Shown in pieces: positions 38,686-47,311 of a stretch of 64,000 bases of DNA. Every line of letters starts with the position of its first letter. Within the stretch, counting starts at the first letter, position 1. Both the position numbers and the translations under genes were made by a program. The stretch lies in the NCBI RefSeq assembly GCF_000237825.1, contig NZ_CM001377.1:1550001-1614000 (forward strand). Direction: 5' to 3'. Origin of the DNA: Thermanaerovibrio velox DSM 12556. GTDB taxonomy: Bacteria > Synergistota > Synergistia > Synergistales > Synergistaceae. The notes below the pieces were generated by a model. That model saw only the letters and a list, made by a program, of their open reading frames with translations, was not told the DNA's origin and searched no databases.

Positions 38686-39856
38686 ATGAATCCCAGGGGA
38701 GTTTACCTCAACAACGCTGCCACCACGTGGCCCAAGCCGCCGGAGGTGGCGGAGGCCATGTACCGTTTCATGACCCAAGGGGGGGCCAACCTGGCGAGGG
38801 GTTCCGCGTCGTCCAGGGACCTGAGCACCATGGACATGGTCCTCAGCTGTAGGGAGGAGCTGGCCAAGCTGTTTGGGGGTTATTCCCACGGGGACCCCCG
38901 GTACGTGACGTTCACCTCCAACGTCACGGAATCGCTCAACTTGGTCTTAAAGGGCTATCTTAAGCCCGGCATGACCGTGGTCACCACCTCCATGGAGCAC
39001 AACGCGGTGATCCGTCCCTTAAGGCGGCTGGAGGGGCAAGGCGTGACCGTACGGGTAGTGACTTGCAGTCAGGACGGCACCCTTCCGCTGGACAGCTTCC
39101 GGGACGCCTTAAGCGGGGGGGACCTGGCGGTAGTGTGCCACGGAAGCAACGTGTGCGGCACCCTGCAGGACCTTGAGGCGGTGGCAGAGACGTGCCACAG
39201 GAGGTCCGTGCCGTTGGTGCTGGACTCCGCCCAGACCGGAGGCTTGGAGGAGATATCCGTCTCGGACCTATCCATAGGTGCTCTTTGCTTTACCGGCCAC
39301 AAGGGGCTCATGGGCCCCCAGGGTATAGGGGGGGTAGTTTGGAGCCCTTGGATGGCAGAGGCATGTTCAAGCCTCATCGAGGGGGGGACCGGGAGCTTCT
39401 CCCATGAGGAGACCCAGCCCTCGGCGATGCCGGACAAGTTCGAGTCGGGCACCCCAAACCTTCCAGGCATAGCGGGGCTCCTGGCGGCGGTGAGATGGAT
39501 CAATTCCGTGGGGAGTCAGGGCCATAAGGGACAAGGAGGGGGAGCTCAAGGAGCTGTTACTCCAGGGTTTGCGGGAGATACCGGGGATCGAGGTATACGG
39601 CGTGACGGATCCCAAGGGATCCCTTGGGGTGGTGGCGATGAACCACCCGTCGGTGGACAACGGGACCTTGGCCATGGAGCTGTCAGAGCGGGGCATAGAG
39701 ACCAGGCCGGGGCTTCACTGTGCCCCCCTGGCCCACAGGACCCTGGGTACCTACCCCGGCGGGGCATTGAGGTTCTCGGTGGGGTATTTCAACACCCGGG
39801 AGGACATACTCAGCGCCTTGGAGGCCCTCCGGGAGGTCTTAGGGGGTAGAATCTAG
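38686..39856 (+). CDS. Class V aminotransferase, cysteine desulfurase/selenocysteine lyase-like (frameshifted)
   Basis: A PLP enzyme of about 389 residues. Motifs include [59 protein letters not shown], the PLP lysine in [17 protein letters not shown] and the C-terminal catalytic Cys in [17 protein letters not shown]. The frame changes at G4 (39510-39513); one G fewer gives [20 protein letters not shown] and restores the whole C-terminus. Lies 12 bases after yedF and before yedE, so it probably delivers sulfur or selenium to YedF/TusA. Confidence 0.9.
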
Positions 39857-41281: not shown

Positions 41282-41310
41282 GGGAGGCCCAAGGGCCTCC
41301 CTATTGTTTT
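41282..41310 (+). terminator. Terminator of the selenium-type operon
   Basis: GGGAGGCCC and GGGCCTCCC form a 9-bp stem with a 2-base minimal loop, then TATTGTTTT. Confidence 0.8.
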
Positions 41311-41416: not shown

Positions 41417-42994
41417 ATGGAGAGATTGCCGGTTCCCATGGCCGGGGATGATAGACTGGACGTAGCGGAGCTTTTGGAGGTTCTGGCGGAGGCGGATGGT
41501 CTTTTACGGTCCTTCGTGCGGGAACAGCGTCTCTCGGTGAAGCTCGCCAGCGCGGACTCCGCGGGGCTGCTCAAGGAGCTTGACGAGGGCAGGAGGTCCC
41601 TGGACAGGGCCTGCGCGGACATGGAGTCAAGCCAAAGGCGCATGATGGAGGTCATAAGGGACGTGGACTCCCTCAAGGACATACTGGAGAGGGCGGTCCA
41701 GGAGGGGAACCGGAGCGCGGAGCTCATGGGCAAGGCCACGGAGTCCCTGGACAGGATGAACCGATCCTTTGAGGACGTACAGGGGCTGGTGGGATCTTTG
41801 GCATCGGTGGCCCGGGACGTGGCGGACATGTTAAACGGCATAGAGCGGGTGGCGAAGCAGACGAACCTCTTGGCACTTAACGCTGCGATAGAGGCCGCCC
41901 GGGCGGGGGAACACGGCAAGGGCTTTGCGGTGGTGGCGGACGAGGTGCGGAAGCTCGCGGCGGAGAGCACCGGCATAACCAAGAAGATCGCGGCCCTGAT
42001 GGAAATGCTATCCCGGAAGACCCAGGAGACCCAGGAGGGGATAGAGACCTTCCGGGAGCTCAAGGAGGCCACGGTCAGGGAGATCCTCGGGGGCACCAGG
42101 ACCCTTAGGGACTCAATGGACAGCTTGAAGTCCTCGTCCGCCAAGCTGGAGGACATATCCAAGCGGGTGGAGGAACAGGGAAGCCTGGAGGAAGAGGTGC
42201 TTAAGGGCTCCTGCGAGATAAACGCCAAGATAACGGAGACCGTGGAGGTCTCGGAGGCCCAGGCTAGAAAGCGGGATGTCCTTTTCTCCGGGCTTGAGAG
42301 GTACGCCAGGGAGGCGAAGCGCACCTTCGAACGGTTCCTGTCCTTCCGCTCCAAGGTGAAGCCCGAGAACACCATAACCTTCGGGCACGATGACTCCTAC
42401 GCCCCCTGGGTATACCTCTCCGAGGGGGCATCAAAGGGCATAAGCGTTGAGAGGGCCAAGAAGGCAGCGTCAGGGCTTTCCAAGCGGGCGTCGTTCATCG
42501 GGGCCCCCTGGGACCAGGTGTTCCCCCTCCTCATGGAAGGCAAGGTGGACGTGATACTGAACGCCGGCTGGCCCAACCCCTACTTCAACAGCTTCCCCGT
42601 GGAGGCAACCAAGACCTACGGTACCTTCAGGACCCGGGTGTACGCCTCCCGGAAGGACGGACTCGGGAGGACCAGGGACATGGCATCCCTGAGGGACCTC
42701 CAGGGTAAGACCGTGGGGGTGCAGCGGGGGGGCACCGGCAACCTCATCAACATCTTGAAGTCCCGGGGGGCCAAGGTGGTGGAGTTCGATAACGACCCCT
42801 TGAGCTTCGCGGAGCACATGTGGAACCGGGTAGACCTGGTGGCATGCGAGGAACAGGTGGCAAAACACCTTAACCAAACCATTTACGACGGTCTGTTCGA
42901 ACCGATAGGAGATCCCCTTGAGACCGTTCAGGTGGTCATGCTGGTCCACAAGGACCACAAGGAACTGCTCAGCGCGTTGAACTCCCAAATATGA
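41417..42994 (+). CDS. Soluble chemoreceptor with C-terminal solute-binding (SBP_bac_3-like) domain
   Basis: A 525-residue protein with no transmembrane segment or signal peptide. Residues about 20-310 are a chemoreceptor signalling helical hairpin with the conserved tip [20 protein letters not shown] and [18 protein letters not shown]. Residues about 325-525 resemble a family 3 periplasmic binding protein: [71 protein letters not shown] and [20 protein letters not shown] binding-protein fold in the cytosol, at the C-terminus of a receptor, is unusual. It would sense an intracellular amino acid or similar solute (inference). Confidence 0.85.
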
Positions 42995-43032: not shown

Positions 43033-43060
43033 TTGTAAAATTTGCAAAATAGTATAGAAT
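43033..43060 (+). promoter_or_regulatory. Promoter of the small secreted protein gene
   Basis: TTGTAA (43033-43038), 16-base spacer, TAGAAT (43055-43060), about 35 bases upstream of ATG 43095. The region is AT-rich and only one gene follows before a strong terminator. Confidence 0.55.
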
Positions 43061-43094
43061 GTTCTCAGCAAATCCACTCAAGGGGGGTTGCGAA

Positions 43095-43460
43095 ATGAAA
43101 AAGCACTGGATACTGGCGCTGGCGGCGCTTTTGGTGCTATCCCTTGCGGCTTCCGCCATGGCGGGAACCGCCTCGGGAAGCGGAACTCAGATCAGGGGCA
43201 ATCCGGGCAGGAACGCGGAGCTTAGGGCCACGCCGTTCGACGTGCCCAGGGGCGTGGTGGCCACCATAACAAACGCCAGCTGCGACGGGGACGGTTTCTG
43301 GATCGAGAGGGACGGGAACGTGATAGGCACGTTCAAATCCGCCGGTGATGCCATAGGGTTCACCCTGTCCGGCGGGACCTACAGGGTTTACCCCAACCTG
43401 AAGGAGGGGCAGTTCAAGCAGGAGACCGCGAGGGTGCAGGTGACGGTCACGTGGCCATAG
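43095..43460 (+). CDS. Small secreted protein of unknown function
   Basis: A 121-residue protein with a typical Sec signal peptide (MKKHWILALAALLVLSLAASAMA), probably cleaved after AMA. The mature part is beta-rich and Gly/Asn-rich, with GVVATITNASCDGDGFWIERDGNVIG and one cysteine. It has its own promoter and terminator and no operon partners. ATG 43095 follows AAGGGGGG. Not recognised; a structural or surface-exposed protein is possible. Confidence 0.75.
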   Translation: MKKHWILALAALLVLSLAASAMAGTASGSGTQIRGNPGRNAELRATPFDVPRGVVATITNASCDGDGFWIERDGNVIGTFKSAGDAIGFTLSGGTYRVYPNLKEGQFKQETARVQVTVTWP

Positions 43461-45046: not shown

Positions 45047-45764
45047 ATCCCATCACCTCCGCGAACGTGAGCAGCTGTTCCCGTCCAAGTAGGACGGGAC
45101 CGTCGGGACAATCCGGCACCGTCATGACCTCAACCCCACAGTTCCTGCGCACCCAGTCCCGGTTATCCCGGTGGATTAATGAGGACTGGTCGAACCGGTT
45201 GAGTATAACCAAGGGGACTGGAACTCCCAGGGAGCGCAGGAAGAACAGGGCGGTCCAAAGGTGACTCAAGGCTCCAAGGCCGCTTGGAGATACCAGAACC
45301 GCGGGCATGCCCCACCGGGCCACCCAGTGGGAGATGAAGGTCCCGTCCCCCAGGGGAACCGCCACCCCGCCGGCCCCCTCCAGCAACACGGGCCGGTAAC
45401 GCCCAAGGAGGACCCACAGTTTCTCCAGCGCTAACCGTTCCTCCGCCTCCCCTATGGACCGTCCCTCCTGAGCCGCCGCGAGGTGAGGAGATGCGGGGAG
45501 CTTGAAAAGAAGCCCCGTAAGGTCCGATGGGGCATCCTCAAGGCCCGCCGCGGAGACCACCGTCTCCGGGTCCTCCCCAACAAGGGTCCCCATTCGGTCC
45601 ACCGCGCCGGTGGCCACGGGTTTGAAGTAGCCGCAGGGAAGATCGAGTTCCCGGAGCCCCCTGACCAGGGCGGAGCTAACCGCGGTCTTCCCCACGTCGG
45701 TGCCGGTGCCCAACACCCAAAAACCATCGGCCCCCGAGAATGGAGGTGACGACAGGCGGCTCAT
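45030..45764 (-). CDS. bioD: Dethiobiotin synthetase
   Basis: A 244-residue P-loop enzyme. ATP loop FWVLGTGTDVGKTAVSSALVRG, substrate residues in GYFKPVATGAVD, and LLEGAGGVAVPLGDG. Overlaps bioA by 17 bases and the bioB stop by 4 bases, so the operon is translationally coupled. Confidence 0.94.
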   Translation of the reverse strand: MSRLSSPPFSGADGFWVLGTGTDVGKTAVSSALVRGLRELDLPCGYFKPVATGAVDRMGTLVGEDPETVVSAAGLEDAPSDLTGLLFKLPASPHLAAAQEGRSIGEAEERLALEKLWVLLGRYRPVLLEGAGGVAVPLGDGTFISHWVARWGMPAVLVSPSGLGALSHLWTALFFLRSLGVPVPLVILNRFDQSSLIHRDNRDWVRRNCGVEVMTVPDCPDGPVLLGREQLLTFAEVMGFGLSC

Positions 45765-46733
45765 ATGATCCTCCCCAAGGGCTTTAACCCAAGTTCACCG
45801 AGCATAGCCGCATCATCCTCAAAGGACATGCCCTGGGTGGTGAGGTAGTCCCCGGTCATGAGGGAGTCCACGGGGCCCGACAGGGCGGTCCTGTCAAAGG
45901 GCCTTATGAGGGGCCTTCCCCCCGCCAACCTTATCCTTCCAGTGGGGATCAGATACCGCAGGACGCAGGAGAACCTGAGGAACTCCTCCCCAGAGGTCAC
46001 GGGGCGCCCCTCCATGGGGGTGCCCTTTATCGGAGAAAGGACGTTGAGGGGGAACGACACCGCCCCCAGCTTGGAGCTCCAAAGCCCGAGGCTCACAAGG
46101 TCCTCATGGGACTCCCCCATGCCCATGATCCCGCCGGAGCATACCTCAAACCCCATGGCCGCCGCTTCCCTTATGAACTCCAGCTTCCTGGACCACCGGT
46201 GGGTTGAACATATGGAGGGGAAGAACGACGGGGAGGCCTCCAGGTTGCAGTGGATCCTCTCCACCCCCGCGTCCCTGAGGGCCTTGAGCTCCTCCCGGGA
46301 GAGGAATCCCAGGGACACGCAGGGGGAAAGCCCCATGCCGCGGATGGCCGGGGCAAGCCGCACCGCCATCCCCAGGACCCGTTTCGGGGCCTTGAAACCC
46401 GATGAGACCAGGGAGAAGCGGCTCACCTTGAAGGAAGCGGCCCTTTGGGCCATGGATAAGACCTCTTGATCCTCCATCACTCCCCCCCGGCATCTGGGTC
46501 CCCACAGGCCCCCTTGTGGACTGGGCGCAGAAACCACAGTCCTCGGAGCAGGAGCCCGTATGGACCGAGCAGATGGCGCAGAGCTCAATCCCGGCGGGCA
46601 AAAGGGCCTCCCTTATGACGGCACTTCCCTCCATAAGCTCCTCCAGGGGCGCACTAAAAAGCGAGAGCCCCTCCTCAGGGGACAGGCTCCCGCCGTTCAG
46701 AACCCGCCGGGCAAGGGCAAGCGGCAGGCTCAT
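45761..46733 (-). CDS. bioB: Biotin synthase (frameshifted)
   Basis: A radical SAM enzyme of about 323 residues that inserts sulfur into dethiobiotin. The [4Fe-4S] motif is CSVHTGSCSEDCGFCAQST, and further on SRFSLVSSGFKAP, VERIHCNLEASPSFFPSIC, EVCSGGIMGMGES, FPLNVLSPIKGTP and the C-terminal GDYLTTQGM. A C7 run (46482-46488) shifts the frame; one base fewer gives TQMPGGVMEDQEVLSMAQRA and rejoins the two parts. ATG 46733 overlaps the bioY stop. Confidence 0.93.
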
Positions 46734-47311
46734 CTGAGGAAGCCCCAGTTGTGCTTCCTGATCCGCAGGGCCACCATGGCGATGAGGGCGCAAAGCACCA
46801 GGTCACCGCCGATGGGCACCAGGAATCCCGCCTTCACCGCCCAGCCCCAGCCCTTGGCCTTGCCTAGGTAAAGGTCCATTATCACCCAAAGGTAAGGGAC
46901 CCCCATGAGGTATATCACCGCAAGCCCCGACAGGGCGGACAGGTAGGCCCAGATAAAGGTCCCGGCCTTGCTCCCCCAGCGCTCCCACAGGAAGCCGGTG
47001 ACGTAAGCACCGGCGCAGAAGCCCACAAGGTAGCCAAAGGTGGGCTGGAAGACGTAGGACGGGCCGCCGCCGGCGGTGAACACCGGGAGCCCCGACAGCC
47101 CCATAAGGACGTAGATCACCTGAGACACGAAACCCCAGCGGGCCCCCAAGAGGATGCCGGACAGGGCGCAGAAGAAGAACTGCAGGGTGAAGGGCACGTA
47201 GGGGATGGGGATCCTTATGAAGGCACCCACCGCGGTGAGGGCGGCAAAGAGGCCGGCCATGACCCAGCTTTTCGTGGCTCCTGAGCTCTGAGAACCGCTT
47301 AAAACGTTCAA
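46730..47311 (-). CDS. bioY: BioY, biotin ECF transporter S component
   Basis: A 193-residue membrane protein with about six hydrophobic segments. BioY signatures are IRIPIPYVPFTLQFFFCALSG, LLGARWGFVSQVIYVLMGLSGLPVF, GGGPSYVFQPTFGYLVGFCAGAY and the C-terminal VPIGGDLVLCALIAM. TTG 47311 follows GGAGGTG; TTG 47326 is an alternative. It opens the biotin operon, so import and synthesis are made from one transcript. Confidence 0.92.
   Translation of the reverse strand: MNVLSGSQSSGATKSWVMAGLFAALTAVGAFIRIPIPYVPFTLQFFFCALSGILLGARWGFVSQVIYVLMGLSGLPVFTAGGGPSYVFQPTFGYLVGFCAGAYVTGFLWERWGSKAGTFIWAYLSALSGLAVIYLMGVPYLWVIMDLYLGKAKGWGWAVKAGFLVPIGGDLVLCALIAMVALRIRKHNWGFLR

Follow-up and report, generated by a model that had tools for sequence, protein, structure and literature searches.

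The gene at positions 41417 to 42994 of the window (the whole 64,000-nucleotide stretch of Thermanaerovibrio velox DSM 12556 DNA that was analysed, positions 1,550,001 to 1,614,000 of the contig) encodes a chemoreceptor without a membrane anchor, P0001, in which a receptor hairpin with a canonical-looking tip sequence is followed by a conserved C-terminal domain of binding-protein fold. We consider it probable (about 0.6) that P0001 is a cytoplasmic chemoreceptor which senses an intracellular small molecule through this SBP_bac_3-derived Venus-flytrap domain. Cytoplasmic chemoreceptors as such are known. What is new is the sensor domain, which is undescribed in the literature searched.

Like P0001, cytoplasmic (topology IV) chemoreceptors such as TlpD and the cytoplasmic-array receptors of V. 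cholerae and R. sphaeroides have an anchorless MCP hairpin, and internal sensing is presumed for them (excerpts of PMC3964821 and PMC10613068). Cytoplasmic receptors mostly have a PAS domain or no identifiable domain (excerpt of PMC10613068, citing Collins 2014), whereas P0001 carries a C-terminal domain of the SBP fold. No description of an MCP with a C-terminal SBP_bac_3 domain was found in the literature searched, which does not establish its absence from print. In the excerpts available, PMC2536512 names both Pfam families, separately, and this architecture is absent from PMC6783814. According to PMC9602780 (excerpt), sensor domains of signalling proteins in the cytosol are hit by SBP profiles as well.

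Domain order, fold and location of P0001

The gene and its domains were placed as follows.

41417 to 42994, forward strand: the whole gene, a 525-aa anchorless chemoreceptor with a C-terminal SBP_bac_3 domain (open reading frame from ATG, Pfam, hydropathy)
41462 to 42358, forward strand: chemoreceptor helical hairpin, residues 16-314 (AlphaFold2 model)
41729 to 42223, forward strand: MCPsignal match, residues 105-269, including the kinase-coupling tip (Pfam, alignment to receptors of the same genome)
42371 to 42991, forward strand: SBP_bac_3 (Venus-flytrap) domain, residues 319-525 (Pfam, AlphaFold2, VIA-align)

In the Pfam search, the MCPsignal match exhibited an E-value of 4.8e-34 (118.1 bits; cut-off 34.6) and the SBP_bac_3 match, covering residues 320-524, an E-value of 2.3e-10 (40.8 bits; cut-off 26.4). 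Both domains also had matches in the PDB. The hairpin tip was aligned without gaps to the other receptors of the T. velox genome. When the full-length protein was modelled with AlphaFold2, two helices (residues 16-162 and 168-314) were obtained, followed from residue 319 by an alpha/beta domain. The relative placement of the domains in this model is unreliable because the mean pLDDT was 73.6 and the pTM 0.40. Residues 319-525 modelled alone from an 11-sequence alignment gave a pLDDT of 90.9 and a pTM of 0.79, and this domain model matched an engineered glutamine-binding protein over 195 residues at 1.8 Å (VIA-align, Z 23.1).

The fold is common to the periplasmic SBP_bac_3 proteins (T. maritima ArgBP, GlnBP and LAO; Z 21-23 over approximately 195 residues). 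In contrast to these, the domain of P0001 has no signal peptide, is cytosolic and attached to a receptor, and differs at the position of the carboxylate-binding arginine (see below). Sensor kinases of the Venus-flytrap type (3h7m and BvgS VFT2; Z 22.9 and 23.0 to the domain model) likewise use an SBP_bac_3-type domain as a signalling sensor, but they carry it N-terminally in the periplasm, whereas P0001 carries it C-terminally in the cytosol. Pfam, AlphaFold2 and VIA-align therefore agree on the receptor hairpin and C-terminal SBP_bac_3-type domain that an earlier note had read from the letters of this DNA, and the absence of an SBP fold, which that note had held to be fatal to its reading, was not what structure prediction returned.

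By hydropathy alone, no transmembrane stretch was detected in P0001 (highest 19-residue Kyte-Doolittle mean 1.06; threshold 1.6), and no hydrophobic stretch of an export signal was seen at the N-terminus; the SBP domain sits C-terminally. The stop-to-stop frame encodes 536 aa against the 525 aa of the protein, which limits any extension ahead of the ATG to 11 residues. Because of the low hydropathy and the few upstream codons in the open frame, a missed N-terminal anchor was rejected. The same note had claimed that there is no membrane segment or signal peptide and had named such an anchor as its possible undoing, and the claim is borne out here. An assembly or annotation fusion was also rejected, because the domain order is identical in six full-length genes: the architecture is kept in three other Synergistota genomes and in two full-length relatives found in the class to which a Syntrophomonadaceae MAG belongs. 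Of five relatives whose hydropathy was read in the same way, four had no peak above 1.6, and the peak of the fifth (L024; 1.87, around residues 152-170) lies within the hairpin.

Distribution of the domain and of the receptor build

The domain belongs to a type with the signature motif NAGWPN (GWPN type). The GWPN-type receptor was found in 4 of 185 Synergistota genomes, namely three from the genus and a fourth from elsewhere in the family, and the SBP profile alone again gave four. The orthologues share 88, 74 and 53 % identity with P0001. When genome contigs were scanned with a single sequence, which is a search of low sensitivity, one relative only was obtained; L021, from the Syntrophomonadaceae MAG, has 34 % identity to P0001. 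The SBP profile matched 8 of 97 genomes in the class of this MAG. The eight matches consist of two full-length receptors (L021 and L033), four aminotransferase-like fusions (L030, L031, L032 and L034), a piece cut by a contig end (L035) and a broken remnant (L036). Among 398 genomes sampled from the phylum of the MAG (the second phylum), six matches below 1e-20 were observed, three of them already among the class matches. The other three are short proteins of the ordinary kind; their open frames measure 264 to 270 aa, and they carry the canonical Arg motif. No standalone GWPN-type protein was found below an E-value of 1e-20 in these 398 genomes, and no standalone periplasmic one at 1e-15 in the 185 Synergistota genomes. 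When a tree was drawn for ten GWPN domains and two ordinary ones, the ten grouped together with a support of 100/100; inside the group, the branching order of receptors and aminotransferase-like fusions was weakly supported.

The fusions, from four genomes of the MAG's class, each join a class-III aminotransferase-like protein to a GWPN-type SBP domain.

L030, 103 to 2208, forward strand: aminotransferase-like fusion
L031, 85 to 2205, forward strand: aminotransferase-like fusion
L032, 76 to 2211, forward strand: aminotransferase-like fusion
L034, 988 to 3087, reverse strand: aminotransferase-like fusion

Because it is also found on this protein, the GWPN domain is regarded as a portable cytosolic module. 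The first part of the fusions is closest to PigE and putrescine aminotransferase. The lysine of the CLAKALGGG motif of PDB 4uox, which we take to be the PLP-binding one, is replaced in L030 (CLPRFLGGG; compared via L042, the same gene), and Arg, Cys and Arg were read by eye at its position in L031, L032 and L034, respectively. Judged from these residues, the fusion without the catalytic lysine is a candidate pseudoenzyme sensor.

The neighbours of L042 are an NMT1-like ABC transporter and an aldehyde ferredoxin oxidoreductase. Those of L046 are an aldehyde ferredoxin oxidoreductase, a URO-D-family protein, a corrinoid protein, a creatininase-family protein (scoring best as IolN) and an Fe-alcohol dehydrogenase. 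L043 was similar to L042 and L044 to L046, as judged from the first residues of the ORFs only. The fusions adjoin aldehyde ferredoxin oxidoreductase genes or sit in methyl-transfer-like clusters, and these neighbourhoods are hints of amine or one-carbon metabolism, no more.

In the T. velox genome, 20 receptors were found over the cut-off. Five of them exhibited no hydropathy peak above 1.6 (P0001, P0002 as L052, P0003, and the two short receptors L007 and L017), and three are anchorless receptors of the P0001 build with three different C-terminal binding-protein domains. The two besides P0001 are located as follows.

L006, 1318 to 2970, forward strand: P0002, anchorless receptor with an SBP_bac_3 domain and canonical residues
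L020, 505 to 2226, reverse strand: P0003, anchorless receptor with a PtxB/PhnD-like domain

P0002 (551 aa) has MCPsignal followed by SBP_bac_3. Its Arg, Thr and Asp positions match those of AncQR, an ancestral arginine/glutamine-binding protein. P0003 (574 aa) has MCPsignal followed by Phosphonate-bd (E-value 2.4e-68) and is closest to the phosphite-binding PtxB; its order and location are those of P0001, and it differs in the binding-protein family. At an E-value of 1e-60, 11 of the 185 Synergistota genomes carry the P0002 type, at 13 places in all, and 15 carry the P0003 type. Ten of the 28 Synergistota loci of these two types were given Pfam, and the receptor-then-binding-protein order was seen in all ten. 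The P0003 type was also found in 20 of 378 second-phylum genomes, with the same order in all eight that were fetched. An N-terminal hydrophobic stretch was present in 4 of 27 Synergistota loci (L053 gave no reading) and in four of the eight second-phylum receptors. Even with such a stretch, the C-terminal domain would still be cytosolic because the receptor hairpin must be in the cytosol. L086, L087, L089 and L093 combine MCP and Phosphonate-bd with an N-terminal hydrophobic stretch and are probably membrane-held receptors with the binding protein on the cytosolic side. The reversed domain order and the location, which had been called unusual, are real but no one-off, as there are two more cases in T. 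velox and others in Synergistota and the second phylum. P0001 is one case of a recurring build, not a curiosity.

Binding pocket and candidate ligands

The pocket positions were mapped against AncQR by sequence alignment around a one-residue insertion and are given from the aligned letters.

42386 to 42394, forward strand: HDD, residues 324-326, invariant in all ten relatives covering it
42560 to 42577, forward strand: NAGWPN signature motif, residues 382-387, invariant in 11 of 11
42587 to 42589, forward strand: N391, position of the canonical carboxylate-binding Arg (Asn in 3 of 11, Asp in 8 of 11, never Arg or Lys)
42848 to 42850, forward strand: E478, position of the canonical amino-group-binding Asp (Glu in 11 of 11)

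The arginine of the AncQR motif TITEERKK, which in a canonical SBP_bac_3 pocket presumably grips the ligand alpha-carboxylate, aligns with residue 391 of P0001. In the seven relatives outside Synergistota, the Thr position of the carboxylate site is occupied by Leu, Ile or Val. E478 replaces the Asp which we take to bind the ligand amino group in canonical proteins, and D325 presumably aligns with LAO D11 (LAO numbering); LAO R77 and D161 are the mutated residues according to PDB titles. W331 is invariant in the ten sequences covering that position, and W365 is kept in eight of ten relatives (Arg or Lys in the other two).

An amino-acid binder is expected to have an arginine for the alpha-carboxylate, which is lacking in all 11 sequences, and an acidic residue for the amino group, which is kept in all 11. 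Judged by these residues, the P0001 subfamily is not a standard amino-acid binder, and an ordinary alpha-amino acid is an improbable ligand. The wording "amino-acid-binding-type domain" of the earlier note is thus supported for the fold but not for the function. Because the acidic and aromatic groups are kept and the carboxylate grip is dropped, a cation without a carboxylate is favoured. The pocket positions weakly suggest, at less than even odds, a cationic amine of this kind, e.g. a diamine or other amine.

We also considered that the domain is an ordinary amino-acid sensor in which another residue substitutes for the missing arginine. Its best solved relatives are arginine- and glutamine-binding proteins, and P0002, with its canonical residues, makes cytosolic amino-acid sensing by this build plausible in general. 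However, the replacements at the Arg position in every sequence and at the Thr position outside Synergistota make this unlikely. A little less likely still is that the domain has lost small-molecule binding and acts in a protein-protein contact, e.g. by docking a partner or by placing the receptor in an array. Such a role would fit the loss of the canonical carboxylate site and the face-to-face packing of presumed ligand-binding ends in cytoplasmic arrays (excerpt of PMC3964821), but HDD, W385 and E478 at cleft positions are among the most conserved residues, and the same domain is also carried by the unrelated aminotransferase-like protein.

The SBP domain is under purifying selection. When P0001 was compared to its three orthologues, the dN of the domain was 0.081, 0.149 and 0.378 and the dS 0.55, 0.66 and 0.87 (dN/dS approximately 0.15, 0.23 and 0.43). 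Against the closest orthologue (88 % identity), the domain was slightly less conserved than the two helical arms (dN 0.081 versus 0.064 and 0.068), and in the two more distant ones its dN was below that of both arms.

Genomic context and proposed function

The order yedF, csd-like, yedE, tusA-like and receptor gene is kept in T. velox and the three relatives examined (in two of the three, the tusA-like gene is only the second match of the yedF query), and the receptor gene faces bioA. One further feature lies upstream of the receptor gene.

41282 to 41301, forward strand: terminator-like hairpin with a T-rich tail, between the tusA-like gene and the receptor gene (terminator scan; five such sites in the region versus 2.4 expected in shuffles)

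Co-transcription with the selenium-type genes was not favoured, as this hairpin lies between them and the order of many other genes is kept too. No functional link between the receptor and the neighbouring genes was seen in T. velox and the three relatives. The neighbours (selenium-type yedF/yedE, biotin synthesis) give no pointer to amine metabolism, and no amino-acid ABC genes were found among those scanned.

Several other observations were made in the neighbourhood. The csd-like gene (cysteine desulfurase type; 38686-39856) and bioB (45761-46793) each read in two overlapping frames in a frameshift-like manner, due to either a sequence error or a true break. The small protein directly downstream of the receptor gene (43059-43460), near yedE/yedF, exhibits a weak match below the cut-off to ExtJ of selenite/tellurite reduction operons and is kept in the two other genus members examined.

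If P0001 works as a sensor, the intracellular ligand would close the two lobes of the Venus-flytrap domain, and this movement would reach the base of the hairpin, at the other end from the kinase-control tip, by way of the C-terminal helix. The activity of CheA would then be altered through the standard tip. The signal would enter from the C-terminal side, whereas in membrane receptors it enters from the N-terminal side. The best reading is that an internal metabolite level would be reported to the flagellar motor. T. velox Z-9701, a thermophilic anaerobe of Synergistota, is motile by lateral flagella (excerpt of PMC3910556). Cytoplasmic arrays form a two-layer sandwich with the presumed ligand-binding ends meeting at its centre (excerpt of PMC3964821), a layout that would suit P0001 if it formed such an array.

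P0001 could instead feed a non-flagellar chemosensory pathway, since the presence of CheW-family domains at six genomic places hints at more than one pathway and no chemotaxis family was found among the scanned neighbouring proteins. We regard this as improbable, because the tip of P0001 resembles those of the other receptors of the genome and orphan chemoreceptors commonly join the main array. It is highly improbable that the domain is an enzyme: the PDB matches include cyclohexadienyl dehydratase, of the same fold family, and its reconstructed ancestor, but the match to the enzyme is weak (5jos, E-value 1.5e-7, profile) and a site without Arg would hardly hold the dicarboxylic prephenate.

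Taking P0001 as a receptor for an intracellular small molecule, we tentatively suggest, as a rather speculative extension, that the GWPN Venus-flytrap could be a portable cytosolic sensor of cationic amines (e.g. diamines) which was passed between chemoreceptors and a pseudo-aminotransferase, and that it could be one branch of a wider uncharacterised class steering by intracellular metabolites. The fusion of the domain to the protein closest to PigE and putrescine aminotransferase speaks for the amine idea.

To our knowledge, many cytoplasmic chemoreceptors have no known ligand. Since P0001 ends in a high-confidence binding-protein fold, its ligand can be sought directly with nothing but the soluble domain, and one small genome offers three such receptors for comparison, each with a different pocket. 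If the proposed reading is true, the C-terminal end of a chemoreceptor can serve as the entry point of a ligand signal, and periplasmic-type binding proteins have been recruited to the cytosol as metabolite sensors on more than one occasion. If P0001 works in this way, the bacterium would steer by the internal rather than the external level of some compound.
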